DNA of 64,000 nt, taken from positions 3,549,001-3,613,000 of the forward strand of contig NZ_CP025791.1 in assembly GCF_002886045.1 (NCBI RefSeq). The letters run 5' to 3'. This DNA comes from Flavivirga eckloniae (GTDB lineage Bacteria; Bacteroidota; Bacteroidia; Flavobacteriales; Flavobacteriaceae). A program made the translations under genes and the position numbers. Below, one piece after another: positions 45,438-62,370 of the stretch. The notes beneath the pieces were generated by a model. It saw only the letters and a program-made list of their open reading frames with translations. It ran no database searches and was not told the origin of the DNA. Within the stretch, counting starts at the first letter, position 1. Every line of letters starts with the position of its first letter.

Positions 45438-45440
45438 GGT

Positions 45441-45683
45441 ATGAGCACAGAAGAAGTTAGATTAAATGTAGAAAAAGCTTTAGAAGAAATTCGCCCGTTC
45501 CTTCAAAGTGATGGTGGCGATATTTCGTTATTATCCATTGAGGAAAACGACACATTGGTCAAAGTCCAGTTAAAAGGAAATTGCGTGAGCTGTAGCATCA
45601 ATCAGATGACACTAAAATCTGGGGTTGAAATGACCATAAAAAAGTATGCGCCACAAATTGAACAAGTTATTAATATTGAATAG
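45441..45683 (+). CDS. NifU-like C-terminal domain protein
   Basis: An 80-residue stand-alone NifU C-terminal (Nfu-type) domain. The start ALEEIRPFLQSDGGDISLLS and the cluster-binding CVSC in QLKGNCVSCSINQMTLKSG are diagnostic. It should bind a [4Fe-4S] cluster between two subunits and hand it to target proteins. Its operon partner Mrp has the same role, fitting the demand of the Fe-S-rich PFOR, Kor and Nuo enzymes downstream. Length is normal for Nfu of this type. Confidence 0.93.
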   Translation: MSTEEVRLNVEKALEEIRPFLQSDGGDISLLSIEENDTLVKVQLKGNCVSCSINQMTLKSGVEMTIKKYAPQIEQVINIE

Positions 45684-45705: not shown

Positions 45706-46062
45706 TTAAAACCAATCTAGGCTATTCGCTATATTGAAACAGGTACTTGCTTTTGATGGGATATAGCAATACGTTGTACAATCCGATTTACGCCATTTAC
45801 AGTCAAAATCTAACAAGTCGATATCTTTAAAGTCTCTGTTGATTTTTATACATTGTTCATAAAGATCATGTATTGTTCTAAAATTCCTCGTATCGATACC
45901 GTTTTCTACAAGAAACCCTTTTAGATAATGGACAATGGCATATTGGGAATTTTTGCAAATTAAATGATTTGCAATATCTTCTCCAGGTTTAAAAAGTTCG
46001 TCATTAGCTTGATTCAATTTTTGAGAGGCATTAAAAAAATATTTACTAGCTTCATTTTTCAT
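45706..46062 (-). CDS. HEPN-like domain protein
   Basis: A 118-residue helical protein from the ATG at 46062 (MKNEASKYFFNASQKLNQAN); the frame stays open upstream to 46104 without family support. The all-helix pattern, NSQYAIVHYLKGFLVENGID then FRTIHDLYEQC, matches HEPN domains. RNFRTIH fits the RNase pattern Rx4-6H loosely. It lies 93 nt after nifJ on the same strand, a place where flavobacteria often carry such a gene. A toxin role is not supported because no antitoxin gene is adjacent. Confidence 0.65.
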   Translation of the reverse strand: MKNEASKYFFNASQKLNQANDELFKPGEDIANHLICKNSQYAIVHYLKGFLVENGIDTRNFRTIHDLYEQCIKINRDFKDIDLLDFDCKWRKSDCTTYCYIPSKASTCFNIANSLDWF

Positions 46063-46155
46063 AGTAAATGTATTTAATGTTAGTAATAGCAATACCGTAT
46101 CCATGCTAAATGCGGTAGCATGGAGAGTTTGTCTTAAGGAGTCTGCAGGATATGT

Positions 46156-49100
46156 TTACATATCTCTGTAAAGTTCTAGTCGCTCCCATTTCGAGTTAAC
46201 TTCTGCTTGAGCCTGTTCCAGGAGCTTAGCTCCAAGTTCGGCATCGTCTTTAGCAACTCTGGAAAAACGAGTTTCATTATACATAAAGTCTTTAAGAGGT
46301 ATCGATGGGGCTTTAGAATCTAATTTAAATTTCTTTCCTTTCGGTTTAGACGGGTCGAATCTAAATAACGGCCAATAACCACTTGCTACAGCTTTTTCTT
46401 GCTGTAAAGCACCGTCGGCAAGATCGTAGCCGTGTTCGCCACAATGCGAATAGGCAATTATAATGGATGGTCCGGGGTAAGCTTCGGCTTCTTCAATAGC
46501 TTTTAGCGTTTGAAGGTCTTTTGCGCCAATTGCAATTTGAGCAACATAAACGTTTTCATAAGAAACAGCTTGAAGCGCTAAACTTTTCTTGCTGGTTCGT
46601 TTACCAGATACAGAGAATTTCGCACTAGCACCTAGAGGGGTTGCTTTAGAAGTTTGTCCGCCGGTATTAGAATAAACCTCAGTATCTAACACCATAATGT
46701 TTATATCCTCACCAGAAGCTAGAATATGGTCTACACCGCCATAACCAATATCGTAAGCCCAACCATCACCACCTAAAATCCATACTGATTTCTTACGGAG
46801 ATATTCGGTGAGTTGATATAGTTTTTTGGCATTTTCATCATCAATGCCTACCAGTTTGATTTTTAATTTATCAAGATTTTTGAAATTTTCTGCTTTCTCT
46901 GTTTCGGTCTTTTCAGGATTGTTAAGAATGGCGTCAACCAGTTCTTTTCCAACGTCTTTTTCAACAGATTTAAGCAAACTTACCGCAATTTCTTGTTTCT
47001 TACTTAAAGCTAATTTCATACCTAAACCGAATTCTGCATTATCTTCAAACAAGGAGTTTGCCCAGGCTGGGCCTCTACCAAATTCGTTCGTTTTATATGG
47101 TGTGGTTGGTAAGTTACCACCATAAATGGATGAGCACCCTGTTGCGTTTGCAATTAAAATACTATCTCCGTATAATTGGGTTAATAGTTTAATGTAAGGT
47201 GTTTCACCACAACCAGAACACGCACCCGAGAATTCAAATAGCGGATCTAAGAACTGCGAGCCTTTTATGTTTGTAATTTGTAATGCAGTTCTATTGTAAT
47301 CAGGTAGATTAACAAAATAATCCCAGTTTACGTCCTCTTCGGCTTCAACTTTAAGCTTTTTGTGCATATTAATCGCTTTAAAGTTTTCATCTTCCTTACT
47401 TACTGCCGGACAAACAGCTACGCAAAGATCGCAACCCGTACAATCCTGTGGCGATACTTGAAGCACATAAGATTCTTCATTTTTATTAAAAGGTCTGCCT
47501 TTAGCTGCAATTGATTGTAGTGAGGCTGGGGCATTTAATAATTCATCATTACGCACAACCTTTGCTCTAATCGCTGCATGCGGGCAAATAGCAACACATT
47601 TATTACATTGCGTGCATAAGTCCACATCATCCCAAACCGGAACATTGTCTGCAATACCGCTTTTTTCATATTGAGTTGTTCCTGTTGGGAAGGTACCATC
47701 AACCGGAAACGCACTTACAGGAAGCTCATCTCCAAACCCGCCAAGAATTTTTTCTAATACCTCTGTAATAAATCCTTCAGGAGCATTTGTCATAGCAGTT
47801 TGGATATGCTTTTTACTTGTAATTTCTTTTGGATATGTTACTTTTTCAAGATTGGCAAGCGCATTATCAACAGCAGTAAAATTCATTTTAACGGTTCTTA
47901 CTCCTTTATGGGAGTAAGACTTTACAATAGCATCTTTAATGCGTTGAATGGCTTCTTCTTTTGGCAGGATACCAGAAATAGCAAAGAAGCATGTTTGTAA
48001 TACGGTATTGGTACGTTTACCGAGATTGGACTCCGCAGCGACTTTACTCGCATCAACGATATAAAAATTGGCTTCTTTATCAATAATCTCTTTTTGTGTT
48101 TTTTCAGGTAGATGATTCCAGATATCGTCTTTAGAATAGGGTGCATTTAATAAAAAGGTTCCACCATGCTTTAAATCGGCAAGCATATTATACTTTTCTA
48201 TAAAATTGAATTGGTGGCTTGCTATAAAATCAGCCTTATCAATTAAATAGGATGAATAAATAGGTTTCGGACCAAAACGTAAATGGGAAATGGTTTGCGC
48301 TCCGGCTTTTTTAGAATCGTATACAAAATAGCCTTGTACAAAATTATCTGTGGTATTTCCAATAATTTTAATGGAGTTCTTGTTGGCTCCCACCGTTCCA
48401 TCAGATCCTAATCCGTAAAACATACAGTTAAAAGTGTTGCTTTCGGTTTTAAAGGAATCGTCAATTGGTAAACTCTTAAACGTTACATCATCATTAATGC
48501 CAACTGTAAAATGGTTTTTAGGTTTATCGTCTAATAATTCGTCATAAATACCTTTAACCATTTGAGGTGTAAACTCTTTTGAAGATAAGCCGTAGCGACC
48601 ACCAACAATAACAGGCATATCTCGATCACTTTCATTAAATGCTGTAACAACATCCAAATATAGAGGTTCTCCAACGCCGCCTGGTTCTTTAGTCCTATCC
48701 AGAACCGCTATTTTTTTAACGGTTTTGGGCAATTCATTAATAAAATGTTTAATTGAAAACGGTCTGAATAAACGAACAAACAATACGCCTACTTTTTCAC
48801 CATGACGAACCATAGTTTCAACAGTTTCTCGTGCAGCACCTTCACCAGACCCCATGAGTATAATAATGCGTTCTGCTTCCGGGTGTCCTTCGTAATAAAA
48901 TAAACTGTATTTGCGTCCCGTATGTTGGTAGAATTCATCCATGGTATCCTGAACAATCTCAGGTACGTTTTCGTAAAATGTATTGGCAGCTTCCCTAGCT
49001 TGAAAGAATACATCCGGATTTTGCGAAGTACCTCGTATTACCGGATGGTCTGGATCTAACGACCGCTTTTTATGCTCTAAAATCTTATCTTCGGGTATCA

Positions 49101-49686
49101 TTGCCGTAATAACATCATCTGGAATAGAATCGATTTTAGAAATTTCATGAGACGTTCTAAAGCCATCAAAAATATTTAGAAAGGGAATTCTGGATTTTAA
49201 CGTGGCTACTTGGGCTATAAGAGCAAAATCGTAAGCTTCTTGAACAGAGCCTCCAAATAACATAGAAAACCCTGTTTGCCTTGCTGCCATAACATCAGAA
49301 TGATCTCCAAAAATTGAAAGCGCATGCGTTGCAACCGTTCTGGCGGCAACATGGATAACAGAGGGTAACAATTCGCCTGCCATTTTATACATATTAGGAA
49401 TCATAAGTAGTAATCCTTGAGAAGCGGTAAATGTTGTGGTTAAAGCACCGGCTTGCAATGAACCATGAACAGCTCCTGCTGCGCCACCTTCACTTTGCAT
49501 TTCTACAATCCTGGGAACATTACCCCAAATGTTTTTTTCTCCGTTAGAGCTAAATACATCAACATGTTCACCCATAGGGGATGCTGGAGTTATCGGGTAT
49601 ATGGCGCAAACCTCATTAGTTTTATGCGCAATTCTTGCAACTGCTTCATTTGCGTCACAAATTAATTTAGGAGTACGGCTTTTCAT
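46156..49686 (-). CDS. nifJ: Pyruvate:ferredoxin (flavodoxin) oxidoreductase
   Basis: Oxidises pyruvate to acetyl-CoA and CO2, passing electrons to ferredoxin or flavodoxin. The fused 1,176-residue enzyme shows the pyrimidine-binding N-terminus (YPITPASPMGEHVD), the transketolase-like domain II with GSGEGAARETVETMVRHG, the gamma region, two [4Fe-4S] motifs in CTQCNKCVAICPHAAI and CTGCDLCVAVCP, and the C-terminal TPP domain with a third cluster (FSGACSGCGETPYIKLL, WILGGDGWAYDIGYGG). Length is standard. It belongs functionally with the ferredoxin and korAB-nuo genes beyond the island at 49.7-56.0 kb. Confidence 0.97.
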   Translation of the reverse strand: MKSRTPKLICDANEAVARIAHKTNEVCAIYPITPASPMGEHVDVFSSNGEKNIWGNVPRIVEMQSEGGAAGAVHGSLQAGALTTTFTASQGLLLMIPNMYKMAGELLPSVIHVAARTVATHALSIFGDHSDVMAARQTGFSMLFGGSVQEAYDFALIAQVATLKSRIPFLNIFDGFRTSHEISKIDSIPDDVITAMIPEDKILEHKKRSLDPDHPVIRGTSQNPDVFFQAREAANTFYENVPEIVQDTMDEFYQHTGRKYSLFYYEGHPEAERIIILMGSGEGAARETVETMVRHGEKVGVLFVRLFRPFSIKHFINELPKTVKKIAVLDRTKEPGGVGEPLYLDVVTAFNESDRDMPVIVGGRYGLSSKEFTPQMVKGIYDELLDDKPKNHFTVGINDDVTFKSLPIDDSFKTESNTFNCMFYGLGSDGTVGANKNSIKIIGNTTDNFVQGYFVYDSKKAGAQTISHLRFGPKPIYSSYLIDKADFIASHQFNFIEKYNMLADLKHGGTFLLNAPYSKDDIWNHLPEKTQKEIIDKEANFYIVDASKVAAESNLGKRTNTVLQTCFFAISGILPKEEAIQRIKDAIVKSYSHKGVRTVKMNFTAVDNALANLEKVTYPKEITSKKHIQTAMTNAPEGFITEVLEKILGGFGDELPVSAFPVDGTFPTGTTQYEKSGIADNVPVWDDVDLCTQCNKCVAICPHAAIRAKVVRNDELLNAPASLQSIAAKGRPFNKNEESYVLQVSPQDCTGCDLCVAVCPAVSKEDENFKAINMHKKLKVEAEEDVNWDYFVNLPDYNRTALQITNIKGSQFLDPLFEFSGACSGCGETPYIKLLTQLYGDSILIANATGCSSIYGGNLPTTPYKTNEFGRGPAWANSLFEDNAEFGLGMKLALSKKQEIAVSLLKSVEKDVGKELVDAILNNPEKTETEKAENFKNLDKLKIKLVGIDDENAKKLYQLTEYLRKKSVWILGGDGWAYDIGYGGVDHILASGEDINIMVLDTEVYSNTGGQTSKATPLGASAKFSVSGKRTSKKSLALQAVSYENVYVAQIAIGAKDLQTLKAIEEAEAYPGPSIIIAYSHCGEHGYDLADGALQQEKAVASGYWPLFRFDPSKPKGKKFKLDSKAPSIPLKDFMYNETRFSRVAKDDAELGAKLLEQAQAEVNSKWERLELYRDM

Positions 49687-49845
49687 AATACATAAAATTT
49701 TAACGAAATGTTTGTTAAGTTATAAACTAAATAGCTGAAATTCTATGATTTATGTCAGGTGACGGTGTTAATGTTGGGGAGTTGTGATTTGTGATAATGG
49801 GGGTTTAGTATAATAGGGTATTATTTAATCGAGAAAGATTTTTCT

Positions 49846-49853
49846 TATATTTG
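49846..49853 (+). promoter_or_regulatory. Putative -7 box for the RelA/SpoT-domain gene
   Basis: TATATTTG fits TAnnTTTG. Transcription would start near 49860, giving a leader of about 100 nt that contains the large hairpin at 49876-49932. Confidence 0.45.
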
Positions 49854-49875
49854 ATTTTACATATAATAGAAATAA

Positions 49876-49932
49876 ACGCACCTTATGACGTTTATTCGGA
49901 AATATAAGGGGAATAAATACCATAAGGTGCGT
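49876..49932 (+). promoter_or_regulatory. Long hairpin in the leader of the SAS gene
   Basis: ACGCACCTTATG (49876-49887) pairs perfectly with CATAAGGTGCGT (49921-49932). Inside, TTTATTC (49891-49897) pairs with GAATAAA (49911-49917), separated from the outer stem by 3-nt internal loops. The 57-nt structure sits between promoter and start codon. It may be a regulatory leader or half of a recombination site. Confidence 0.6.
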
Positions 49933-49940
49933 CTATATAA

Positions 49941-49953
49941 TTGTTACCTGCAA
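49941..49953. repeat. Left flank inverted repeat of the SAS gene
   Basis: TTGTTACCTGCA at 49941-49952 is the exact complement of TGCAGGTAACAA at 50960-50971, so 12-bp inverted repeats bracket the coding region. With one bulged base the match extends outward by about five more pairs. Confidence 0.7.
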
Positions 49954-49962
49954 TTTAAAGAA

Positions 49963-50958
49963 ATGGATAAAAATAAATTAATACGAGAGTTTCAAGAAAA
50001 GAAAGAAAATTACAATAGACTTGGAAATAATATTGTTGAAGCTTTGAGAACATTTCTAAAAGAAGCAGACATCCCTTTTCTTGAGATATATTCTAGAGTA
50101 AAAAAATTCGATTCTTTTTACGAAAAAACAAAAAGAAAAGGATATAAAAATCCGTTTATAGATATTGAAGATATATGTGGAGTTCGAATAATTTGCTATT
50201 ATGCTTCAGATATTAAAAGAATTGATGAAATTATTAGAAAAGAATTTTTAGTTATCGAGCAAGAAGACAAATCTGATTTATTGGGATTAAAAGAATTTGC
50301 CTATAGATCAAATCATTACATCGTAACTATAAATGATAGTTGGTTAGCTGCCCCAAACTACAGAAAGCTTAAAGGCTTAAAGGCCGAAATACAGACAAGG
50401 ACCGTACTTATGCACGCATGGGCAGAAGTTGAACACAAGCTAAATTATAAGAGTGATGCTCAAGTCCCCGACAAATTTCAAAGAAAACTATTTCGCTTAA
50501 GTGCGAAATTTGAAGAAGCCGATGAACAATTCGAGGAATTAAGAATAGGTATTCAAGAATACAAAGAAACTATAAATGATAATATAGCTAAATCTAATAG
50601 CTTCAATTTAAAGCAAGATTTTAATCTAGAAACATTTAAAGCCTACATTAAATATAAATTTCCAGACGATTCAGAAAATTGGAAAGAAGATGATTTTTCA
50701 TTGTTTTTTGACAATTTTGATGAAGACGGTGAGAATTTTGTTTCTATCGAAAAAACAATCGAAAAAATGCAACCTCATTATGAACAGATTCATAAAGATT
50801 TAGTTACACATAAATATGAAGGATTTGATTTACCAAAAACACTTTTATTAACTTGGTTTTCCCTTTATGTTACCAATCCAAAAAGAAAAGGAGAATTAGA
50901 ATTTGATGAATCAGCGTGGGATATAGTCCTTAAGAAGTGGATTGAAAAAAAATTATAA
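49963..50958 (+). CDS. RelA/SpoT-domain protein (small alarmone synthetase-like)
   Basis: A 331-residue protein from the ATG at 49963 (MDKNKLIREFQEKKENYNRL); the frame is open upstream through the hairpin, which should not be coding. The synthetase-type domain (about 30-190) has YSRVKKFDSFYEKTKRKG (the RxKxxxSxxxK ATP loop), DIEDICGVRIICYY and EIQTRTVLMHAWAEVEHKLN. There is no HD hydrolase domain and no TGS or ACT. The C-terminal ~120 residues are acidic and unrecognised. It probably transfers pyrophosphate to a nucleotide or tRNA. Very AT-rich (28 of 120 G/C at 50101-50220) and flanked by repeats, so foreign. Confidence 0.82.
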   Translation: MDKNKLIREFQEKKENYNRLGNNIVEALRTFLKEADIPFLEIYSRVKKFDSFYEKTKRKGYKNPFIDIEDICGVRIICYYASDIKRIDEIIRKEFLVIEQEDKSDLLGLKEFAYRSNHYIVTINDSWLAAPNYRKLKGLKAEIQTRTVLMHAWAEVEHKLNYKSDAQVPDKFQRKLFRLSAKFEEADEQFEELRIGIQEYKETINDNIAKSNSFNLKQDFNLETFKAYIKYKFPDDSENWKEDDFSLFFDNFDEDGENFVSIEKTIEKMQPHYEQIHKDLVTHKYEGFDLPKTLLLTWFSLYVTNPKRKGELEFDESAWDIVLKKWIEKKL

Positions 50959-50959
50959 C

Positions 50960-50971
50960 TGCAGGTAACAA
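50960..50971. repeat. Right flank inverted repeat of the SAS gene
   Basis: TGCAGGTAACAA starts 2 nt after the stop codon and is the exact complement of 49941-49952. It runs straight into the large palindrome at 50973-51083. Confidence 0.7.
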
Positions 50972-50972
50972 T

Positions 50973-51083
50973 GTATAACCGCAATTACGGGCGGATTTGA
51001 CTACGTCCGAATCCACTCGGAATTGCTAAAGTCAGTGCCAAACCGAAAATAAACGCATATTAACCCGTAACTGACGGTTATAC
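50973..51083. repeat. 111-bp attC-like imperfect palindrome
   Basis: GTATAACCG (50973-50981) and CGGTTATAC (51075-51083) are exact complements at the ends. TTACGGG (50985-50991) and CCCGTAA (51064-51070) are exact complements inside, with unequal spacers (3 and 4 nt). Two box pairs, an unpaired base and a variable middle are the layout of integron attC sites. No integrase was seen, and GTTATAC deviates from the GTTRRRY core, so this is a likeness, not a proof. Confidence 0.55.
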
Positions 51084-51107
51084 GAGACCGTTATGGTCAA
51101 TATAATT

Positions 51108-52004
51108 ATGAAAAAAATAGCACTAATTACTCTAATCTCCACAGTATCATTCATGGTCTACTGTCAAAACAATAAGATACAATCAACTTCAATACCCAGA
51201 ATTCAACTTATAGCTCGCCTCAATGCAGAAGACAGTGATACATTGTGGTCAATGGAGCTTGATGGCTCCAATCGACGTCAAATAGCGGATAGCGCGCTTT
51301 TATTCGACGGAGCGACGATTGTACATACGCCTATTCGTTCGCCTAATAACCGTTATGTAGCATTGTCTTTGGATGGTCCCAATGGTTATTTTAGAGGGCT
51401 TTTGGATTTAAAGGAGCAAACGAGTATCAAGATAATTGACGGAGGAGGTGTCCCCCATTTTAATTGGACATCAGATAGTGAAAATCTGATTTTTTACTCC
51501 GATGGAAAGCATTATAACTATAGTGTTTCAGAGCAAAAGTTAACTGAACGCACAACTATTTTTTCTATTGGTTTATTTCTTTTGCCTGGTGATAAAGAGT
51601 TTCTGGCAATGAAATCAGACGGTTTCTGGATTCATGACTTCAATGGCAAGCTTAAAAGAAAAGTGACGTTTAATTTTCCAGAAAATTGGAATATTAAATC
51701 CCCCATTGTATCCATCGACGGCAAACTTGTTTTTTTCAAAACCGACGGTGGACCAAGCATCATGGCACATTGGGCCTCTATAGAAACAGGAGAACTTTTA
51801 GGCAGCGAGAATGCCCGAAAGTTTCTAAAATCACGCGCCAGTCCGATATTCTCTGACAAACCAGACACGCTTTATTACTGGCGTGGAGATACGGTGCGCT
51901 ATTTCAATCTTATAACACGTACATTTGAAGACGTACCATTGCACAGCCCCGCTACCTGGGAGTTTCACTCTTTAGGTTTACGGTCGTTATACAACGTTAA
52001 TTAA
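51108..52004 (+). CDS. Exported TolB/beta-propeller-like protein
   Basis: A 298-residue protein from the ATG at 51108 (MKKIALITLISTVSFMVYCQ); an ATG at 51093 adds five residues before a good signal peptide. A Cys at about 19 could make it a lipoprotein. The rest has repeating beta-propeller-like stretches such as LWSMELDGSNRRQIADSALL, GVPHFNWTSDSENLIFYSDG and DTLYYWRGDTVRYFNLITRT, like TolB/WD40-type domains. Function is unknown. G+C (57 of 120 at 51241-51360) is far above the adjoining SAS gene, as expected for unrelated cassettes placed together. Confidence 0.7.
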   Translation: MKKIALITLISTVSFMVYCQNNKIQSTSIPRIQLIARLNAEDSDTLWSMELDGSNRRQIADSALLFDGATIVHTPIRSPNNRYVALSLDGPNGYFRGLLDLKEQTSIKIIDGGGVPHFNWTSDSENLIFYSDGKHYNYSVSEQKLTERTTIFSIGLFLLPGDKEFLAMKSDGFWIHDFNGKLKRKVTFNFPENWNIKSPIVSIDGKLVFFKTDGGPSIMAHWASIETGELLGSENARKFLKSRASPIFSDKPDTLYYWRGDTVRYFNLITRTFEDVPLHSPATWEFHSLGLRSLYNVN

Positions 52005-52534
52005 TTCTATTTGAAGTATCAATATGGCTAAGCAAGAATCGGAAAGCATTTTCAATACTTTTGAGATTAAAATATAGAGAGTTATCTATGCTGACAACCC
52101 CAGCTCCCGCTAGAATATTTTCTAGTGGCGGTAAAACAGCTAAAAACCCATTAATTTAAAAACACAAAAACCCATACTTTCCGTAAAAGCTTTTTATTAT
52201 ATACTTCCTTTTCACTGTTATTGTCACTAGAAAATATTCTAGCAGGAGACATATTTAGAAACAACGGTGTATATGTGCGTTTAATTGAAGTTGAGTGAAT
52301 AATTTTTTTTGGATAATCTTTCTTGCCTTGCGTACGACAAAACACATATTTTCTGTATCTTTATCTAAGATTTGTGCAATAGGCACGCCATATATAAGAA
52401 ATGACTATTTTTAGCTAACGTTAAGTTGGTTACGTATTTGTTAGCTTCTGATTTTCTTTCGAAAAAACCTCAAACTCAAACGTGCAACATCTCGTACATA
52501 AGCTTGATCCGTCCTGAAGTTTAAACAAATTGAA
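52005..52534. other. 530-bp non-coding spacer in the island
   Basis: No gene is accepted here. It contains copy A of a direct repeat (52101-52218), a 24-bp inverted repeat (52104-52127 with 52225-52248), and AGCTAAC/GTTAGCT (52413-52419 with 52440-52446), another small attC-like pair. The start of the next gene is preceded by a stretch without a clear TAnnTTTG box. Confidence 0.6.
52101..52248. repeat. Repeat copy A with 24-bp inverted repeats
   Basis: The left arm (52104-52127, CTAGAATATTTTCTAG core) matches the complement of the right arm (52225-52248) at 23 of 24 positions. The first 118 bp recur in diverged form at 55798-55912, sharing TAGAATATTTT, CATACTTTC and TTTTTATTATAT blocks in the same order. 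Confidence 0.75.
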
Positions 52535-55500
52535 ATGAAAAAAAATCTACTTTTCCTGTTTTGTATTATTATATGCATAAATAAAATCTACTCTCAAACA
52601 AATTGGGAATTGTTGAACCCTAAACCAACAGCTAATACTGGAAAAGATATTGATTTTGTGACAAATAATATTGGATACATTATTACGTCTAATGAATTAT
52701 TGGAAACGCTGGACGCTGGCAATACTTGGTTAAAAAAACAAAATATATCTAGTGGAAATGATATGAGTTTTTACAATACAACAGGCTATATTGTTGGTAA
52801 TTATGGATACGTGTTAAAATCTATAGATAACGGAACATCCTGGAGTCAAATATCTACAGGTTTTAATAATACATTTAATACTGTTAATATAATTGATGAT
52901 AACAATATTATATTATCGACTTCAAATAGTGTGATAAAAACTGATGATGCCGGAGTAACCTGGGAAAGCTCAAGTATACCTAATGTAAGTGTAGTCAAAA
53001 CTTTTTTCACATCTTTATTGGTAGGACATGCAGCTTGTTTAAATGGAGTTATCCTAAAAACTATTGATGGTGGAGAAACTTGGTACTCAACAAAAGACGA
53101 CAGTAATATCATCCCTTCTAATTATTTTAACATCTACTTCATTAATGAAAACATTGGATTTGCAACAAGAGAACATGATTATATGTATAAAACTACTGAT
53201 GGCGGAGAAACTTGGATAGAAATATCGGGATCAATTGAGGCAATATATGATTTTCATTTTTTAGATGAAAATAATGGATTTGCAACAGGAGATCATGGAG
53301 CTACCTATAAAACAAATGATGGAGGAAGTACATGGAGTCAAATTTTTTTTCAAAGTGGATTTGTATACAATACTTCTATGTATGGAATTTATTTTCAAGA
53401 CAGTAATATTGGTTATGCCACTGGTGCGCGTGGACGTATTATTAAAACTACAGATGGAGGAGATACATGGACACCAGGTTCTGTAACTTATAATGATTTT
53501 AATGGTATTAAAATATTTGATACCGGTGTAGGTTTTGCTAGGTCAGGAAATAATTATTACAAGACTACTGATTTTGGAGATAATTGGTCTTTTATTTCTT
53601 CTACGAACCATTATACATATTGTAGTGGGTTTTATTTTGTTAATGAAAATATTGGTTATTCCATAGGAGGTGGAACGAACAGTATATCTGGAGATGTATT
53701 TAAAACATTAGATGGAGGAGTCACATGGAATCAATTAAATATTTACGTAGACGAAGGGCTAAGTTCTATTTTCTTTATAAATGAAGATATTGGTTTTATT
53801 TCTGGAGGTTTTAACCAAAGAAAAGTTATGAAAACTATTGATGGGGGAATTACATGGAATCAGGTTTCTAATCAAGAATTTGGTCAGATACAATTTGTTA
53901 GTGATTTGATTGGTTATGGTAATCGTATAGGAAACTATTATGGAGCTATGTACAAAACTATAGATGGTGGCAATACATGGAATATAAGTATTGAGTTGGA
54001 AGGTGAAGATATTAATGCATTTCATTTTGTCGATGAGAACAATGGGTATTTTGTCGGTGATCAAGGTTTAATCTATAAAACAAACGACGGCGGAACCAAC
54101 TGGCAAGAATTAGAAATTCCATATGAATGGTATACAAAGGTTAATTTTTATTCAAAAAATATTGGCTATATAGCAGACGAGGATGGAAAACTCTATAAAA
54201 CGGAAAACGGAGGTGTAAATTGGGAATATCTTACTCAACAATATGCTATAAATTCAATTGAACTTATTAACGAGAAAATCTATACAGTAGGTACAAATGG
54301 TAAAATTTACAGAAGTAATGTAGATTATGAAACCATGATTTTGCATATTAATCCTGCTGAAAACCTCACTAATTCAAGTGCTAGTTTAACTGGTAATGTT
54401 GCTTCTAATGGAGAATCTATTTCGAACATTCAATTTGAATATAGCATGGATTACTCGTTCAGTAATATTATTTCTACAATACCTGAAACCGTTGATGCAA
54501 ATGAATCTTTGAATGTTTCTATTGATTTAGTTAACTTAGAGTCAAACACCACATATTACTATAGATTGACAGGAAAACAGAATTCAAATATTAATTCTTC
54601 TAGCCAAATTTTGAGTTTCACAACACTTCCCGATTATGAAATAACAACGAAATATACTTTTAATTTTTCATCCAATACTGCAGAAATTTCGGGTACTGTA
54701 GTTTCCAATGAACATGACATTACAAATGTGGAGTTTCAGTATGGTAAGAGTTCAGATGCTCTTAGTGGTACTTTAAGTGGAACACCAACATCTGTATTAG
54801 AAAATACAACAGAAAATGTTACTGCAAGTTTAATTAATTTAGAACCTGAAACGCAATACTTTTATAGAATAAAGGCAACACACCAAGGAGAAGATATTTA
54901 TGGTGATATTCAGTCTTTTACAACTTATCCAGAATACGATATAAATCTTTATGGACCAAGTATTAATGGAACAGATGTTACATTATCAGCATATTTGACT
55001 TCTCATAATCAAGATATAACAGATATCGTGTTTGAATACGGAACTATTGATTACAGAAACAATATTTCAACCAATCCTTCTCGAGTCAACGCTAACAGTA
55101 CAAACTATGTTAGTACAACAATAACTAACTTAGATGTAAATTCAAATTACTTTTTTAGATTAAAAGCTATTCATAATGGAGAAACTATTTATAGCAAAGA
55201 AGGAATTTTTAATTTTTCAGGAGATATTATAATGGTTAGCGGAACAATAGAAGAAACTCAAACAAATTCTTTAGAATTTAAAGGATTAATTAATAGCTAT
55301 GGAGCTTATTTAACAGATATTCATTTCGAATATGGGGTTACAGACAGTTTTGGTTCATCAATAGCAGGAACGCCAAATTTTGCTTATGATTATAATACTA
55401 ACTTGATAACTAGTTTAATCAACAACCCGTTGCCAAATCAAACTTATTACTACAGACTAGTTGCCACTAATAATGGGAATATAGTTTATTCAGATACTTA

Positions 55501-55786
55501 TCAATATACAACAGGTACATTGAGCCTTACAGATTTTGATTTAGAAAAAGAAATATCAATATATCCAAACCCAACAACTGATTTTGTGAACATTAAATCT
55601 AATGTTTCTGAAAAAGCTAAGTCCGTTGAATTTTATAATGCTTTAGGTAAACGTATTTATTATGAGAATGTTTTTAATATTTCTGATATAAAAATTAATG
55701 TATCTAACTTCAGAAAAGGGCTATACTTCATAAAAGTAAATTTTGAAAGTACGAAAGTAGTATCATCAAAATTAATATTGAATTAA
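52535..55786 (+). CDS. Large T9SS protein with YCF48-like and FN3-like repeats
   Basis: A 1,083-residue exported surface protein. The signal peptide ends at about residue 20 (KIYSQ). Residues about 30-600 hold about 13 beta-propeller-type units, each with a KTxDGGxTW motif (KTIDGGETWYS, KTTDGGETWIE, KTNDGGSTWSQ and others), as in YCF48/BNR proteins. Four FN3-like units follow to about 1000, each with TTYYYRL or a relative. The type IX type A sorting domain closes it (ISIYPNPTTDFVNIKS, FRKGLYFIKV). It may bind glycans or other cells. It lies between two diverged copies of a repeat. Confidence 0.88.
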   Translation: MKKNLLFLFCIIICINKIYSQTNWELLNPKPTANTGKDIDFVTNNIGYIITSNELLETLDAGNTWLKKQNISSGNDMSFYNTTGYIVGNYGYVLKSIDNGTSWSQISTGFNNTFNTVNIIDDNNIILSTSNSVIKTDDAGVTWESSSIPNVSVVKTFFTSLLVGHAACLNGVILKTIDGGETWYSTKDDSNIIPSNYFNIYFINENIGFATREHDYMYKTTDGGETWIEISGSIEAIYDFHFLDENNGFATGDHGATYKTNDGGSTWSQIFFQSGFVYNTSMYGIYFQDSNIGYATGARGRIIKTTDGGDTWTPGSVTYNDFNGIKIFDTGVGFARSGNNYYKTTDFGDNWSFISSTNHYTYCSGFYFVNENIGYSIGGGTNSISGDVFKTLDGGVTWNQLNIYVDEGLSSIFFINEDIGFISGGFNQRKVMKTIDGGITWNQVSNQEFGQIQFVSDLIGYGNRIGNYYGAMYKTIDGGNTWNISIELEGEDINAFHFVDENNGYFVGDQGLIYKTNDGGTNWQELEIPYEWYTKVNFYSKNIGYIADEDGKLYKTENGGVNWEYLTQQYAINSIELINEKIYTVGTNGKIYRSNVDYETMILHINPAENLTNSSASLTGNVASNGESISNIQFEYSMDYSFSNIISTIPETVDANESLNVSIDLVNLESNTTYYYRLTGKQNSNINSSSQILSFTTLPDYEITTKYTFNFSSNTAEISGTVVSNEHDITNVEFQYGKSSDALSGTLSGTPTSVLENTTENVTASLINLEPETQYFYRIKATHQGEDIYGDIQSFTTYPEYDINLYGPSINGTDVTLSAYLTSHNQDITDIVFEYGTIDYRNNISTNPSRVNANSTNYVSTTITNLDVNSNYFFRLKAIHNGETIYSKEGIFNFSGDIIMVSGTIEETQTNSLEFKGLINSYGAYLTDIHFEYGVTDSFGSSIAGTPNFAYDYNTNLITSLINNPLPNQTYYYRLVATNNGNIVYSDTYQYTTGTLSLTDFDLEKEISIYPNPTTDFVNIKSNVSEKAKSVEFYNALGKRIYYENVFNISDIKINVSNFRKGLYFIKVNFESTKVVSSKLILN

Positions 55787-55797
55787 AAACACGATTA

Positions 55798-55912
55798 TCA
55801 CCTCTGTTAGAATATTTTTTATCAAGGGCAAAATAGCTAAACATACATTGCTTTGAAAAGGCAAAAGTTCATACTTTCTGTAAAAACTTTTTTATTATAT
55901 TCTTTCTATTCG
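55798..55912. repeat. Repeat copy B, direct copy of 52101-52218
   Basis: The order of blocks TTAGAATATTTTTTATC, CAAAATAGCTAAA, CATACTTTCTGTAAAAAC and TTTTTATTATATTC follows copy A with many substitutions. It lies 11 nt after the stop of the large T9SS gene, so that gene is bracketed by direct repeats about 3.7 kb apart. The right-hand inverted arm of copy A is not kept here. Confidence 0.65.
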
Positions 55913-56025
55913 GAGAAGTTTGTGCTGGAACTGACGAAGGTAATGATACAATAAGGGTAAGAATCGCAGAACATTTGGAATTAAATGATGATTGTCCCAA
56001 TAGCCTTGATTAATGTATCTAATCT

Positions 56026-56376
56026 TTACTCAGCATGCAACCAAGCCTTTTTCTCAAGCAACGTCTCTTCAGATTCAACATGGTCTTCATCAGGCACACA
56101 ACAATCTACTGGACAAACCGAAGCACACTGGGGCTCTTCATGAAACCCTTTACACTCTGTACATTTTTCTGGAACGATATAATAAAATTCATCAGATATC
56201 GGGTCGTTCATTTCATCGGCATCAGCTTCGTCTCCATTTGGAAGTGTAACGCTACCGCTTAAGGCAGTTTCATCTGCATAAGCCCATTCCTGATCTGGTT
56301 CATAAATTGCATTGTTGGGACATTCTACGATGCAGGCATCACAATTAATACACTCATCTGTTATAATAATAGCCAT
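56026..56376 (-). CDS. 2[4Fe-4S] ferredoxin (Alvin type)
   Basis: A 116-residue dicluster ferredoxin. The first cluster motif is CINCDACIVECPNNAIY. The second is CTECKGFHEEPQCASVCPVD, with eight residues between its second and third cysteines, the insertion typical of the Allochromatium type with a very low potential. The 30 acidic residues between the motifs and the C-terminal tail are as expected. It lies divergent from korAB and, with PFOR across the island, is the obvious electron carrier of the cluster. Confidence 0.93.
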   Translation of the reverse strand: MAIIITDECINCDACIVECPNNAIYEPDQEWAYADETALSGSVTLPNGDEADADEMNDPISDEFYYIVPEKCTECKGFHEEPQCASVCPVDCCVPDEDHVESEETLLEKKAWLHAE

Positions 56377-56534
56377 AATTAAACATTTAAGAAAATAATA
56401 TTTGTAAATTTAAATTAGTTTTTAGAGCTTTAAGTGATAAAAATCATATTAAGAACCTTAAAAAGAAATTATATTTCGTATCTAATATACGCTTTTAGCT
56501 TAAATTTTGCTAATTCTAAATCATTAAATATCAC

Positions 56535-58397
56535 ATGGCTACAACACAATCAAACACACAGCATGAAGTTCTCGAAGCTGTAATTATTAGGTTCGTGGGA
56601 GATTCTGGAGACGGTATGCAACTAACAGGAACACAGTTTTCTGACACCTCTGCAATGTTTGGTAACGACATAGCCACATTTCCCAATTATCCGGCAGAAA
56701 TAAGAGCGCCACAAGGTAGTTTGTATGGGGTTTCGGGTTTTCAGGTACATATTGGAAGTGTTGAAATTAGTACGCCTGGTGATGAGGTAGACTTATTGGT
56801 AGCGATGAACCCTGCAGGGTTAAAAACAAACCTGCATGCAGTAAAACCTGGCCATACTATTATTGTAGACACAGATGCCTTTACAAAGAAGAATTTAGAA
56901 AAAGCACAATACGATTCTAATCCCTTAGAAGATAATAGCCTTGAGAATTATCGGGTTATTGAGGTTTCTATGACGTCGTTAACTAAAGAAACATTAAAGG
57001 ACGTTCAAGGGTTGGATAATAAGAGTATTACCAGAAGTAAAAACATGTTTGCTTTAGGTATGGTGTATTGGATGTATGATCGCTCACCCGATTATACCAT
57101 AGACTTTTTTAACAAAAAGTTTAAATCGAAACCAGAAATTATTGAAGCCAATACAAAGGTATTGAATGCCGGTTTTTATTTTGCTGAAACTTTAGAACTC
57201 ATCCCAAATGCTTATTCCATATCACCAGCAAAAATGCCTGCAGGAACTTATAGGATTATTATGGGGAATACGGCAACTGCCTGGGGATTCTTAGCTGCGG
57301 CTGAAAAAGCTGGTTTGGAGCTGTTCTTGGGATCGTATCCTATTACACCAGCTTCCGATATTCTTCATGAATTGGTTAAACATAAACATTTTGGTGTAAA
57401 AGCACTTCAAGCGGAAGATGAAATTGCAGGTATTACCTCTGCGATAGGCGCTTCTTTTGCTGGAGATTTAGCCATTACTACAACATCAGGACCAGGCTTG
57501 GCTTTAAAAGGAGAAGCCCTTGGTTTAGCGATGATGATAGAATTACCCTTAGTAGTTGTTAATGTGCAACGTGGCGGTCCCTCTACAGGGCTACCCACAA
57601 AAACAGAACAATCGGATTTACTACAGTCTATGTACGGTAGAAATGGTGAGAGTCCTGTTATAGTTATTGCAGCAAGCACACCCGCTAACTGTTTTAATTT
57701 TGCGTATCAGGCAGCTAAAATGACTTTAGAGCATATGACGCCTGTTGTTTTATTAACAGATGGCTATATAGCAAATGGCTCGGCACCTTGGAAAATACAG
57801 TCTGCTAAAGACATGTCAGAAATAAAGAACAATATCGTTTCAGAATACCATGAAAATTGGCATCCTTATGATAGAGATAAGGAAACACTCGCTCGTAATT
57901 GGGCCATTCCGGGAACGCCTCAATTTGAACATAGGGTAGGTGGCTTAGAAAAAGATAGGATTTCAGGTAATGTTTCTTATGTTCCCGAAAACCATGAATA
58001 CATGACCAAAATTCGGGCTGAAAAAATTAAACGGGTGCAAAATTACATCCCAGATCTAACTACAGAATTTGAAGAAGAAGGCGATTTATTGGTTGTAGGT
58101 TGGGGAGGTACTTACGGTTCGTTGCATACGGCTGTTAAGAAGTTGAATGAAGAAGAAGGTTTTAGCAACATAGGCTTGGCCCATTTTAATTATATTAATC
58201 CCTTACCTAAAAATACAGAAGACGTTTTTAGTAAATTCAAAAAGATCGTTGTTTGCGAATTAAATAACGGACAGTTTGCTAAAATTTTAAAAATCAATTT
58301 TAATAATTTAAATTTATTAGAATATAATAAGGTACAAGGACTTCCTTTCGGAAATGGAGAGTTGGCAGAAAAATTTAAACAATTATTAGTAAAATAA
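56535..58397 (+). CDS. korA: 2-oxoacid:ferredoxin oxidoreductase alpha (gamma-alpha fusion)
   Basis: The larger subunit of a two-subunit 2-oxoacid:ferredoxin oxidoreductase, most likely for 2-oxoglutarate. Of its 620 residues the first ~190 are the gamma domain (IIRFVGDSGDGMQLTGTQFS, IRAPQGSLYGVSGFQVHIGS). The alpha domain follows with SYPITPASDILHELVKHKHF, QAEDEIAGITSAIGASFAGD, TTTSGPGLALKGEALGLAMM and VNVQRGGPSTGLPTKTEQSD. The beta gene is 7 nt downstream. Substrate preference cannot be read safely; branched-chain or pyruvate activity is possible. Confidence 0.92.
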   Translation: MATTQSNTQHEVLEAVIIRFVGDSGDGMQLTGTQFSDTSAMFGNDIATFPNYPAEIRAPQGSLYGVSGFQVHIGSVEISTPGDEVDLLVAMNPAGLKTNLHAVKPGHTIIVDTDAFTKKNLEKAQYDSNPLEDNSLENYRVIEVSMTSLTKETLKDVQGLDNKSITRSKNMFALGMVYWMYDRSPDYTIDFFNKKFKSKPEIIEANTKVLNAGFYFAETLELIPNAYSISPAKMPAGTYRIIMGNTATAWGFLAAAEKAGLELFLGSYPITPASDILHELVKHKHFGVKALQAEDEIAGITSAIGASFAGDLAITTTSGPGLALKGEALGLAMMIELPLVVVNVQRGGPSTGLPTKTEQSDLLQSMYGRNGESPVIVIAASTPANCFNFAYQAAKMTLEHMTPVVLLTDGYIANGSAPWKIQSAKDMSEIKNNIVSEYHENWHPYDRDKETLARNWAIPGTPQFEHRVGGLEKDRISGNVSYVPENHEYMTKIRAEKIKRVQNYIPDLTTEFEEEGDLLVVGWGGTYGSLHTAVKKLNEEEGFSNIGLAHFNYINPLPKNTEDVFSKFKKIVVCELNNGQFAKILKINFNNLNLLEYNKVQGLPFGNGELAEKFKQLLVK

Positions 58398-58404
58398 GTA
58401 AGTT

Positions 58405-59415
58405 ATGGAAACAGCTGCAAAAAAATACACTTTTAAAGACTTTGCTAGTGATCAGGAAGTAAGATGGTGTCCGGGTTGCGACGACTACGTTATTTTACGG
58501 GCCATGCAAAAAGCTCTTCCAGACATGGACGTTAAAAAAGAAGATGTCGTATTTATTTCTGGTATAGGCTGCTCCTCACGATTCCCTTATTATATGGATT
58601 CTTATGGCATGCATAGTATACACGGTCGTGCTCCTGCCATTGCTACAGGTGTTAAAATAGCAAATCCAGACTTAAGTGTGTGGGTTATTACCGGAGATGG
58701 CGATTCTATGGCTATTGGAGGTAATCATTTTATCCATGTACTACGCCGAAATGTCGATTTAAATATTATCCTTTTCAATAATGAGATTTACGGTTTAACA
58801 AAAGGGCAATTTTCACCAACCTCGCTTGTTGGTCAGAAAACAAAATCATCCCCTTACGGAAATACACAGCCCCCTTTTTCTCCCGGTGAATTAGCCATTG
58901 GCGCACAAGCCCGATTTTTTGCCAGAATAGGAGGAAATACTCCTAAAGAAATGACAGACCTTTTTATAGAAGCCGAAAAGTTTAAAGGGACGTCTTTAAT
59001 AGAAGTATTACAAAATTGTCCTATCTTTAATGATGGTTGTTTTACAGAATATACAGATAAGAAAGTAAGGGAGGACAAACAACTATATGTTAGACATGGC
59101 GAGCCGATGATTTTCGGAAAAGAAAAAAACAAAGGTTTAGTCTTAAACGGTTTAAAGTTGGAAGTCGTTACCATAGGCGAAAACGGAATAACAGAAAAAG
59201 ATATATTAATTCATAATGCCAAAGAACAAGACCCAACATTGCATCAAATGCTAGTTAGGTTACGTTACCCTTTAGTAACTGGTATTATTAGGAGCTACGA
59301 AGATGTCACTTTAGAAGAAAGAATCGATGTCTTAACTGCCGAAGTAAAGAGCAAATCTAAATTTAATAAAACAGACGATCTGTTTTTCTCGGGAGATATT
59401 TATCAGGTGTTTTAA
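58405..59415 (+). CDS. korB: 2-oxoacid:ferredoxin oxidoreductase beta subunit
   Basis: The TPP- and Fe-S-binding partner of korA, 336 residues. Marks are RWCPGCDDYVILRAMQKALP, IGCSSRFPYYMDSYGMHSIH, the TPP-binding GDGDSMAIGGNHFIHVLRRN with NNEIYGLTKGQFSPTS, and CPIFNDGCFTEYTD near the end. The cluster cysteines (CPGC, C in IGCSS, and a later C) are present. nuoA starts 17 nt later on the same strand, so korAB and nuo probably form one transcript. Confidence 0.94.
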   Translation: METAAKKYTFKDFASDQEVRWCPGCDDYVILRAMQKALPDMDVKKEDVVFISGIGCSSRFPYYMDSYGMHSIHGRAPAIATGVKIANPDLSVWVITGDGDSMAIGGNHFIHVLRRNVDLNIILFNNEIYGLTKGQFSPTSLVGQKTKSSPYGNTQPPFSPGELAIGAQARFFARIGGNTPKEMTDLFIEAEKFKGTSLIEVLQNCPIFNDGCFTEYTDKKVREDKQLYVRHGEPMIFGKEKNKGLVLNGLKLEVVTIGENGITEKDILIHNAKEQDPTLHQMLVRLRYPLVTGIIRSYEDVTLEERIDVLTAEVKSKSKFNKTDDLFFSGDIYQVF

Positions 59416-59432
59416 TTTAAAACATAACATAA

Positions 59433-59783
59433 ATGGGCTCAGAAGCCATCATTGTATTTTTAATTGCGGGCATTGTTTTGGTCGCAGGGGCAAACTTTTT
59501 GTCTAATTTAATATCGCCAAAATCAGATAATCCGCAAAAACGAGAGCCATACGAAAGTGGTATGGTAACCAAAGGCCCAACATGGGTTCAGTTTAAAGTG
59601 GGCTATTATTTGTTTGCCATTCTTTTCTTAATTTTTGATGTTGAGGTTGCATTTTTAGTTCCCTGGGCGGTTGTTTTTAAAGATATTGGATTTGTTGCTT
59701 TAATAGAAATAGTCATATTTCTGTTCATCCTAGGATTAGGATTGTTGTATGCATGGAAGAAAGGAGCGTTAAAATGGGAGTAG
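59433..59783 (+). CDS. nuoA: Complex I subunit NuoA
   Basis: A membrane subunit of NADH:quinone oxidoreductase-type complex I, 116 residues with three helices. The conserved loop [20 protein letters not shown], then [20 protein letters not shown] with the family's Asp-Glu pair in the second helix, identify it. It overlaps nuoB by 10 nt. It begins 17 nt after korB, an unusual direct junction of 2-oxoacid oxidoreductase and complex I genes. Confidence 0.95.
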
Positions 59784-60367
59784 ACGATAAAAAAAGATAT
59801 ATCTCTGAGGTTCAAGATAGAGACCATAAATTTCCGAAAGATTTTCCGGGAAAAGTTATTCCTGCCGGAAATGGAGCTAACATGATCGTTACCTCGTTAG
59901 ACCAAATCATTAACTGGGGACGAGCAAACTCGCTTTGGTCGCTTTATTTTGGTACCAGTTGCTGTGCTATTGAAATGATGCAAACAGGGGCTGCCCGGCA
60001 TGATTATTCCCGATTTGGTTTTGAAGTGGCTCGCCCTTCGCCCCGTCAGGCAGATTTAATCATTATAGCAGGAACTATAGTTAATAAAATGGCGCCTGTA
60101 TTGAGGCGTTTATACGACCAGATGGCAGAGCCAAAGTATGTTATAGCCATGGGAGCATGTGCTATTTCTGGCGGACCGTTTTTTTATAATACGTATTCCG
60201 TGGTAAAAGGAGCAGACCATGTTATTCCTGTAGATGTTTACGTTCCGGGGTGTCCGCCACGTCCTGAAGCCTTGCTGGAGGGTATGCTGATGCTTCAAGA
60301 TAAAATTAGAACCGAAAGTTTAAAAAACAAAGAAAACCCGATTGAAGGATTTGATGAAGGACTTTAA
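59774..60367 (+). CDS. nuoB: Complex I subunit NuoB
   Basis: Carries the N2 [4Fe-4S] cluster next to the quinone site. Marks are [15 protein letters not shown] (with the vicinal cysteines), the quinone-side block [20 protein letters not shown] and [17 protein letters not shown] start it at the ATG at 59774 ([12 protein letters not shown]), 197 residues, which overlaps nuoA by 10 nt. The ATG at 59753 would add seven residues read from nuoA. A 187-nt gap with a repeat separates it from nuoC. Confidence 0.95.
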
Positions 60368-60554: not shown

Positions 60555-61016
60555 ATGACCAACGAAGCCTTACAAAACTTAATAACTAATTGGATGCCTG
60601 ATTTAGAGTTTACCGAAGAAGCATCCCAGTTTTTAAATGTTACGGTTTCGCCCGAAAACCTTCATCAATTAATGACAGAATTAAAAAATAATAACGAAAC
60701 TAAATTCGATTATTTGTTTTGTTTAAGTGGTGTTGATTGGAATCCTGAACTAGGCGTTGTGTATCATTTAGAATCCACAATTCATAGGCATACTATTGTT
60801 GTAAAAGTAAAAATAGCAGATCGGGAAAACCCTACTCTAGATACAGTATGCGATATATGGAGAACTGCCGAATTCCACGAACGTGAAGTGTTTGATTTCT
60901 TCGGAATAAAATTCAATAATCATCCCAATTTAAAACGCCTGTTTTTAACAGACGAGTGGGAAGGATTTCCGTTAAGAAAAGACTATGAAGACGCTATTAA
61001 TATGGTTATTAAATAA
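60555..61016 (+). CDS. nuoC: Complex I subunit NuoC
   Basis: The 30-kDa-type subunit of the peripheral arm, 153 residues. Marks are FDYLFCLSGVDWNPELGVVY, IWRTAEFHEREVFDFFGIKF, and LKRLFLTDEWEGFPLRKDYE, the family's C-terminal signature. It is short but complete for Bacteroidota. nuoD follows 6 nt later as a separate gene (not fused). Confidence 0.95.
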   Translation: MTNEALQNLITNWMPDLEFTEEASQFLNVTVSPENLHQLMTELKNNNETKFDYLFCLSGVDWNPELGVVYHLESTIHRHTIVVKVKIADRENPTLDTVCDIWRTAEFHEREVFDFFGIKFNNHPNLKRLFLTDEWEGFPLRKDYEDAINMVIK

Positions 61017-62144: not shown

Positions 62145-62370
62145 GGGAAGAGCGATGACCGGTGATAGGTGTTTGATGATAGAGAAAGAAGAAATTAACT
62201 AGTAGAAAAAGAGTTTAATAAATTTTATAAAGAATCATTTCATTTAATGAATGATATGATTCATTTAGAAATAAATTATAATGTTTAGTTTAATCATGCA
62301 ATATTGGTCATTTATCATCGGTCTTCAGTCACCGGTCACCAATCTTCCGTCTTCTATCTCCGGTCATCCA
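62145..62370. repeat. GGTCATC/GATGACC-type repeats around the nuoH 5' end
   Basis: GCGATGACCGGTGATAGGTG at about 62151 and CTATCTCCGGTCATCCATC at about 62355 are inverted relatives (13 of 16 in the core). Between them TCATCGGTCTTCAGTCACCGG at about 62313 repeats the same words. The second half is translated as part of the predicted nuoH N-terminus. Confidence 0.6.

Follow-up and report, generated by a model that had tools for sequence, protein, structure and literature searches.

What donates electrons to a complex I that carries no NADH-oxidising module? The question is raised by a 64,000-nucleotide (nt) stretch of the Flavivirga eckloniae genome (a single contig of 5.67 Mb; positions 3549001–3613000, the whole of which is called the window below), in which korA and korB, encoding a putative 2-oxoacid:ferredoxin oxidoreductase (KorAB), run into the nuo genes of such a complex, with genes for a ferredoxin and for pyruvate:ferredoxin oxidoreductase (PFOR) in the vicinity. 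Our reading, which we hold to be probable on the strength of the gene content and its recurrence in relatives, is that the locus encodes a proton-pumping ferredoxin:menaquinone oxidoreductase that receives its electrons from KorAB and PFOR and runs forward. Electrons would thereby enter the respiratory chain by a branch that avoids NADH: KorAB would convert 2-oxoglutarate to succinyl-CoA and PFOR pyruvate to acetyl-CoA, both reducing an acidic 2[4Fe-4S] ferredoxin, which would then bind the exposed tip of the headless complex I through a lysine-rich loop of NuoI. From there the [4Fe-4S] clusters of NuoI and NuoB would relay electrons to menaquinone, the usual quinone of this group, while the membrane arm would pump protons. 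In relatives that have the Rnf complex beside korAB, the same ferredoxin-fed ion pumping would take place with NAD+ as the acceptor.

The korAB-nuo row and its complex I

The features on which the argument rests are as follows (aa, amino acids; bits and E values are those of the family model named, and cut-offs are those of the models).

46156–49686, minus strand: PFOR, single-chain pyruvate:ferredoxin (flavodoxin) oxidoreductase, 1176 aa; TIGR02176, 1740.5 bits, cut-off 911
56026–56376, minus strand: 2[4Fe-4S] ferredoxin, 116 aa; NF033683, YfhL-family dicluster ferredoxin, 94.8 bits, cut-off 86
56377–56534: 158 nt between the divergent ferredoxin and korA genes, presumed site of both promoters
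56535–58397, plus strand: korA, 2-oxoacid:acceptor oxidoreductase alpha subunit, fused gamma-alpha, 620 aa; TIGR03710, 633 bits, cut-off 483; PF01558 and PF01855
58405–59415, plus strand: korB, 2-oxoacid:ferredoxin oxidoreductase beta subunit, 336 aa; TIGR02177, 244 bits, E 1.8e-72, under the cut-off of 262; PF02775
59416–59432, plus strand: korB-nuoA junction, 17 nt
59433–59783, plus strand: nuoA; NF005839, E 2.7e-33, under cut-off
59753–60367, plus strand: nuoB, cluster N2 subunit; TIGR01957, over cut-off
60555–61016, plus strand: nuoC, separate from nuoD; TIGR01961, over cut-off
61023–62144, plus strand: nuoD; NF004739, over cut-off
62145–62280, plus strand: nuoD-nuoH gap, 136 nt, the place of nuoEFG in 14-subunit clusters such as L108
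62281–63426, plus strand: nuoH; NF004741, over cut-off
63751–64000, plus strand: nuoI, first part, running beyond the window (L004:3751–4245); E 2.6e-26, under cut-off
after nuoI, to L004:10422, plus strand: nuoJKLMN; NuoJ E 2.2e-28, under cut-off

Followed beyond the window (loci L003 and L004), the nuo cluster reads A, B, C, D, H, I, J, K, L, M, N, in that order. No nuoE, nuoF or nuoG was found in this row, and the nuoD-nuoH gap holds no such open reading frame (ORF). PF01512, the family of NuoF and also of RnfC, has no match in the whole host genome (of the three head subunits, NuoF is the one covered genome-wide); a control search with the same model gave matches in 9 of 14 known genomes. 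Complex I is here the headless, 11-subunit form without the NADH-oxidising module, a fact that the preliminary description of this DNA had missed. A 14-subunit NADH:quinone oxidoreductase was rejected because the NuoEFG module is missing from the cluster and PF01512 from the genome, and an Rnf complex in the host because, with no PF01512 match, there is no RnfC.

Some relatives do possess unlinked PF01512 proteins, mostly open frames of 501–621 aa and others RnfC-sized, which could favour the view that the complex is an NADH dehydrogenase borrowing its head from an unlinked NuoF-like protein. This is very improbable, as the host has no such protein to lend, and as NADH may be served there by Na+-NQR (sodium-pumping NADH:quinone oxidoreductase), given one NqrF match over the cut-off in a search that covered the NqrF subunit alone. 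Moreover, deletion of nuo in Bacteroides fragilis left NADH:quinone activity unchanged, according to the accessible passages of PMC7002350, where the authors also note the poor expression of nuo in the medium used.

The first step of the proposed pathway has its own candidate substrate. KorAB has the fused gamma-alpha subunit and the thiamine pyrophosphate (TPP) beta subunit of the OAFO/Kor type, PFOR is a full-length single chain, and these two, PFOR and KorA, are the only POR_N family matches in the host genome. Solved relatives of KorB are 5b46, 5b48, 6n2n and 8ys5, the last named 2-oxoglutarate ferredoxin oxidoreductase beta; 6n2n and 8ys5, which we take to come from Magnetococcus and Helicobacter respectively, are 2-oxoacid or 2-oxoglutarate:ferredoxin oxidoreductases whose beta subunits are homologous to KorB. 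Unlike them, KorAB stands here in a row with a headless complex I, its substrate being predicted by homology. 2-Oxoglutarate is the candidate substrate, judging from 8ys5, from an Aquimarina locus (L082) in which korAB lies beside sucB-sucA, and from two genomes (G092 and G103) that have KorAB and headless Nuo and no E1 component of 2-oxoglutarate dehydrogenase (OGDH). These are the only two without OGDH E1 among 149 Flavobacteriaceae genomes; it is present in the other 147 and in the host genome, so that KorAB as a replacement of OGDH in the host was rejected. Since the genome encodes both OGDH E1 and NqrF, KorAB-Nuo looks like an added branch and not a replacement.

The 17-nt spacing between korB and nuoA given in the preliminary description is exact. 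The two genes share a strand in all 75 loci that show both, at a distance of 6–254 nt, which is at most 150 nt in 73 of them (starts were chosen by script, and the count includes a few duplicate genomes and the scaffold L068, described below). This goes beyond what chance would give, and korAB and nuo would be expected to be co-transcribed. No plus-strand terminator was found between the end of korA and nuoA in a terminator scan that, like the sigma-70 scan, performed at chance level (69 promoter-like sites found, 71.0 ± 8.9 expected); one weak plus-strand promoter-like site lies within korB, at 59188–59217. TTG-N17-23-TAnnTTTG, which we take to be the Bacteroidota promoter motif, has no match on either strand between 45500 and 64000. 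Several intergenic gaps within the host nuo cluster are long, such as nuoH-nuoI (63427–63750) and nuoM-nuoN (L004:8778–8997), the latter carrying by eye a short tandem repeat of AGAAGACAG-like units.

Recurrence of the row and alternation with Rnf

Recurrence was assessed in named genomes, from which the best 80 of 446 stretches encoding a KorB relative were taken as loci, and in the family sample of 149 Flavobacteriaceae genomes (148 genera), where a KorB orthologue was defined by E < 1e-100. In the closest named relative by KorAB, Flavivirga sp. 57AJ16, the match reaches 92 percent. Nuo lies beside korAB in 60 of the 80 named loci, Rnf in 6 and neither in 9 (a class that requires more than 4 kb of sequence downstream), 5 being cut too short; none has both pumps. 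The 60 include L068, with nuoABCD only and a NuoG-like gene upstream, judged to be a scaffold artefact with runs of N; it was left out of the ferredoxin count below and kept among the 75 gaps and in the tree. In the 47 named loci showing both genes, nuoD and nuoH are 7–424 nt apart, which leaves no room for nuoEFG. Genera with the candidate Nuo-type wiring are Salinimicrobium, Salegentibacter, Gramella/Christiangramia, Lutibacter and Muriicola, and Winogradskyella and Mariniflexile have the Rnf version.

In the family sample, a KorB orthologue is present in 26 genomes (in G027 at 54 percent only), NuoH in 18 and PF01512 in 32. All 17 genomes with a headless NuoH cluster have KorB, with korB and nuoH within about 4.3 kb, start to start, in 16; in G103 they are on separate contigs. 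The single NuoH genome without KorB (G102) has NuoE, F and G in its nuo cluster. KorB occurs without Nuo in nine genomes, and both KorB and headless Nuo are lacking in 123 (Fisher p 3e-16 for the association, uncorrected for kinship). The trait is therefore not typical of the Flavobacteriaceae, with KorB in 26 and headless Nuo in 17 of the 149 sampled genomes. The link between 2-oxoacid oxidation and a respiratory pump at the DNA level, as proposed in the preliminary description, nevertheless recurs across many genera; it is reinforced by the headless nature of the pump and by the finding that Rnf adjoins korAB in relatives devoid of Nuo.

Rnf genes lie beside korAB in 6 of the 26 KorB genomes (G047, G101, G109, G115, G124 and G136), all six without NuoH. 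Named and family-sample loci together give 11 distinct Rnf loci. In 10 of them korB is followed immediately downstream by rnf; the exception is L066 (identical to L102), which has rnf on the korA side and in which no ferredoxin gene was seen. In L090, where six of six Rnf subunits pass the NCBIfam Rnf models, the order is LysE-like, Mrp, PFOR, ferredoxin, korA, korB, then rnfAEGDCB on the opposite strand, followed by a small ferredoxin-like gene ([2Fe-2S]-type by eye, with no Pfam match) and a phosphoesterase-like gene. In the host genome the same two genes, small ferredoxin-like and phosphoesterase-like, are found beyond nuoN, at 71206 and 72729 in window numbering. This far flank is present in four Rnf loci (L057, L090, L092 and L094, the last without the phosphoesterase-like gene); the fetched Nuo loci stop short of it and so cannot show it. 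In a sister Flavivirga (L005, 5994–11612), the small ferredoxin-like gene comes immediately after the ferredoxin gene and korAB, no pump intervening, the phosphoesterase-like gene is about 6 kb further on, PFOR is missing from the stretch, and the genome has neither NuoH nor PF01512. A comparison of these flanks shows that the site occurs in three states, with Nuo, with Rnf and without a pump.

The alternation was followed on a KorAB tree of 96 pairs, of which 71 are labelled Nuo, 10 Rnf and 11 none, with 4 unlabelled (quick LG+G4 search; seven duplicate loci dropped, four loci cut too short left unlabelled, and L113 of G103 labelled none with its nuo on another contig). The Rnf label needs 6 changes on this tree, at least 5 of them forced by the starred branches, and the Nuo label needs 16. 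In addition, two genomes without a KorB orthologue have PFOR, ferredoxin and Rnf at this site (L116 and L117). KorAB exists without a pump, whereas no headless Nuo without KorB occurs in the family sample, which suggests a dependence of the pump on KorAB rather than the reverse. No recurrent third pump type was seen by eye among the ORFs flanking korB in eight loci without Nuo or Rnf. In two pumpless Maribacter loci (L022, 11144–13414; L042, 11139–13385), korB is followed by a CxxCH (haem c-like) protein, by eye.

The ferredoxin gene goes with the pump: it adjoins korA in 72 of 73 pump loci compared with 4 of 11 pumpless loci (p 6e-7). This count excludes seven duplicate loci, loci lacking a close match to KorA, 7 Nuo loci in which little upstream sequence is available (4 with and 3 without ferredoxin) and 4 unclassed loci (3 with, 1 without). 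The whole may be regarded as a "ferredoxin socket", in which KorAB, PFOR and ferredoxin stay in place while unrelated pumps, headless complex I or Rnf, alternate beside them, a generalization to which we would give an even chance; direct docking of KorAB on the pump, in place of the missing head, would be a bolder extension of it.

The use of two pumps with different partners also bears on the direction of electron flow, as both would serve ferredoxin supply if the pump worked in reverse. In this chief rival explanation, a proton or sodium gradient would push electrons up to ferredoxin, from menaquinol in the case of Nuo and from NADH in that of Rnf, and KorAB and PFOR would carboxylate reductively to make 2-oxoglutarate and pyruvate, for anaplerosis. 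It would account for the presence of KorAB in cells in which, given OGDH E1 in 147 of the 149 genomes, the cycle does not need a second oxidative enzyme, and gradient-driven RNF can indeed make reduced ferredoxin from NADH (accessible part of PMC12174285). Reverse operation is less easily reconciled with G092 and G103, where KorAB and headless Nuo without OGDH E1 fit an oxidative use. For the Nuo version, moreover, the menaquinol-to-ferredoxin step is steeply uphill, the potential difference being large from general knowledge of the potentials. We consider reverse operation unlikely and retain the forward, ferredoxin-oxidising reading.

The neighbourhood of the row at the window differs from that of its relatives. 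The preliminary description had PFOR, ferredoxin and korAB lying together, which is correct for the ferredoxin-korA-korB row; PFOR, on the minus strand like the ferredoxin gene, is 6.3 kb away from it and outside the presumed korAB-nuo transcription unit, so that its part in the link has to be trimmed. The three genes in between encode a RelA/SpoT domain protein, a product that matches no Pfam family, and a protein with YCF48 repeats and a Por secretion tail. In the 63 related loci showing both (duplicates included), PFOR and ferredoxin genes are on the same strand and 24–560 nt apart, so the 6.3-kb gap looks local. This stretch of about 6 kb (49885–55786) is absent from related loci, and the G+C content drops to 0.295–0.311 at 52–56 kb. 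On the other side of PFOR, 45706–46104 (minus strand) encodes a small HEPN-domain protein (PF05168 just over the cut-off), with a similar 124-aa ORF, by eye, in the matching position of L090 (3094–3468). An Mrp/NUBPL-type Fe-S carrier ATPase (PF10609) is encoded at 44301–45680, followed by a small NifU-like ORF by eye, and Mrp is found near the korAB locus in a number of relatives; in mitochondria, NUBPL is a complex I assembly factor.

The NuoI loop and headless clusters of the Bacteroidia

If ferredoxin docks on the bare tip of the complex, NuoI is the candidate subunit for its binding. In host NuoI the stretch separating the two [4Fe-4S] motifs includes a lysine-rich loop, GKKKKKID (set-wide form GKKKKxID). 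Over a segment of six residues (-16 to -11 from the second motif) that was picked after viewing the loops, 99 headless NuoI have a mean charge of +4.1 (range +1 to +5), compared with 0.05 for 19 canonical sequences from the same class. Five of 107 NuoI matches failed the motif and 4 of 23 canonical loci gave no NuoI; as 20 of these loci were added for having NuoF near NuoD, the presence of NuoF in 23 of 23 cannot serve as an independent test. Four K/R in a row are found in 89 of the 99 headless loops and in none of the 19 canonical ones. A basic residue at position -12 is shared by all 99 headless loops and, as judged by eye, most canonical loops, which leaves the K/R run as the distinctive part.

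Among solved structures, the best NuoI-type matches are chloroplast NdhI chains (40.8–42.5 bits). The NuoI piece 11–56, which contains the loop, aligns with residues 89–134 of the NdhI chain 6hum_I, presumably from T. elongatus, over equal spans; a short query limited to the loop gave no match to solved structures, and the alignment therefore rests on printed ranges. In the T. elongatus Fd-NDH-1L structure, Lys86, Lys89 and Lys91 of NdhI contact ferredoxin (accessible passages of PMC7021789). If this numbering is shared with 6hum_I, as we assumed, headless NuoI has basic residues at the loop near the ferredoxin contacts. We take the loop as supporting and not decisive evidence for a candidate docking site, because the headless set is of common descent.

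Several observations weigh against our reading. The 99 headless NuoI (duplicates included; 83 distinct loops) share their ancestry, and their lysine loop may therefore be a sign of descent and not of function. A run of three K/R occurs in 10 of 19 canonical loops (91 of 99 headless), and 6hum_I, at 33.8 bits, scores below the NuoI of 2fug (38.2 bits). NuoA, NuoI and NuoJ of the host score below the cut-offs of their best models. KorAB exists without either pump: NuoH is absent from each of the 9 named genomes without a pump, and a PF01512 protein is present in only 2 of the 9, one of them RnfC-sized (L060, about 15 kb from korB if C1 is the locus contig); in these genomes, the ferredoxin of KorAB must therefore have other outlets. 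Finally, at the level of the class, KorA or KorB was found in only 11 of 44 stretches around a headless-type NuoD, some of which are cut by contig ends.

These 44 stretches come from a sample of 246 Bacteroidia genomes, of which 45, including the host, have a window-type NuoD (E < 1e-100). nuoD and nuoH are 18–519 nt apart in 40 of the 44, which makes these clusters headless, and the other 4 stretches show no NuoH. korAB is on the strand opposite to nuo in 8 of the 11 KorAB-positive stretches, and ferredoxin is encoded in 9 of the 44 (adjacency was read by eye, then checked on the fetched stretches). Seven window-type NuoD matches (48–57 percent) are frames of 526–717 aa, as a NuoC-NuoD fusion would give. 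Many of these genomes have a second, more distant NuoD (about 44 percent), and three Bacteroidia genomes carry both a headless and a canonical nuo cluster (L135/L178 in G193, L127/L189 in G262, L126/L182 in G348). In L134 (G366) and L158 (G236), a headless-type NuoD (63–64 percent) stands with no other nuo gene within a stretch of about 20 kb.

The 33 class stretches without KorAB, like the KorAB genomes without a pump, could be accommodated by another donor: headless Nuo would be fed by flavodoxin, a hydrogenase or another dehydrogenase, and the proximity of korAB would reflect shared regulation, for example by oxygen or iron. An earlier quest for one common donor is reported to have been unsuccessful (accessible part of PMC11238625). 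Such an explanation does not readily predict that KorB is found in 17 of 17 headless genomes of the family sample, that Nuo alternates repeatedly with Rnf on the KorAB tree, or that the ferredoxin gene goes with the pump, and we find it quite improbable for the Flavobacteriaceae row. The locus ferredoxin, which the preliminary description called Alvin-type and which matches the YfhL family, is very acidic (4 K/R for 30 D/E), and the proposal that it docks at NuoI is the one that we retain.

Known headless complexes and the biology of the row

Ferredoxin as the donor of headless complex I is not a new idea, and the pump itself was already known; what is new is the korAB-ferredoxin-nuo row and the alternation of Nuo with Rnf. 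The headless NUO of B. fragilis and Prevotella has the same subunit set without NuoEFG (PMC7002350, PMC6560451, PMC10542786, passages accessible to us); the F. eckloniae cluster differs in its separate nuoC and nuoD genes and in being headed by korAB with a divergently oriented ferredoxin gene. In those passages, the electron donor of B. fragilis NUO is called unknown (PMC7002350), and the function of Prevotella Nuo is called open, more experiments being needed, with a cited proposal that P. copri Nuo oxidizes ferredoxin (PMC10542786). The Desulfitobacterium complex is also headless, and PFOR and ferredoxin were proposed as its donors from expression patterns; it differs in belonging to a strict anaerobe and in having two candidate ferredoxin genes that are not near the PFOR gene, and in the accessible part of that report we met no Rnf alternation and read that the question of the direct donor "remains" (PMC11238625).

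Cyanobacterial and chloroplast NDH-1, a ferredoxin:plastoquinone oxidoreductase, likewise has no NADH head, and its ferredoxin contacts are lysines of NdhI close to the ones aligned with the loop of headless NuoI (PMC7021789, same passages). In NDH-1 the ferredoxin is of the [2Fe-2S] type and comes from photosystem I, and there are additional docking subunits, NdhS, NdhO and NdhV; the window locus has a 2[4Fe-4S] ferredoxin and 2-oxoacid oxidoreductases. The Rnf complex, beside korAB in relatives, is also a ferredoxin-linked ion pump, of different architecture and with NAD+ as acceptor. Neither a korAB-nuo linkage nor a Nuo/Rnf alternation in Flavobacteriaceae was found in the open-licence literature, in the titles and abstract openings among the matches listed.

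In conclusion, the genetic wiring of the row and the alternation with Rnf make the donor question testable. The genome of F. eckloniae offers a genetically linked donor candidate for an 11-subunit complex I, namely the cognate ferredoxin with KorAB and PFOR; the presence of Rnf beside the same genes is a comparison made by evolution, and the lysine loop of NuoI is a candidate docking site that can be mutated. If our reading is correct, these bacteria can run part of the citric acid cycle without passing through NADH. If the socket is also real, the headless complex I of these bacteria would be a ferredoxin:menaquinone pump, and cells with a full OGDH would run a second, NADH-free and higher-yield branch of the citric acid cycle.

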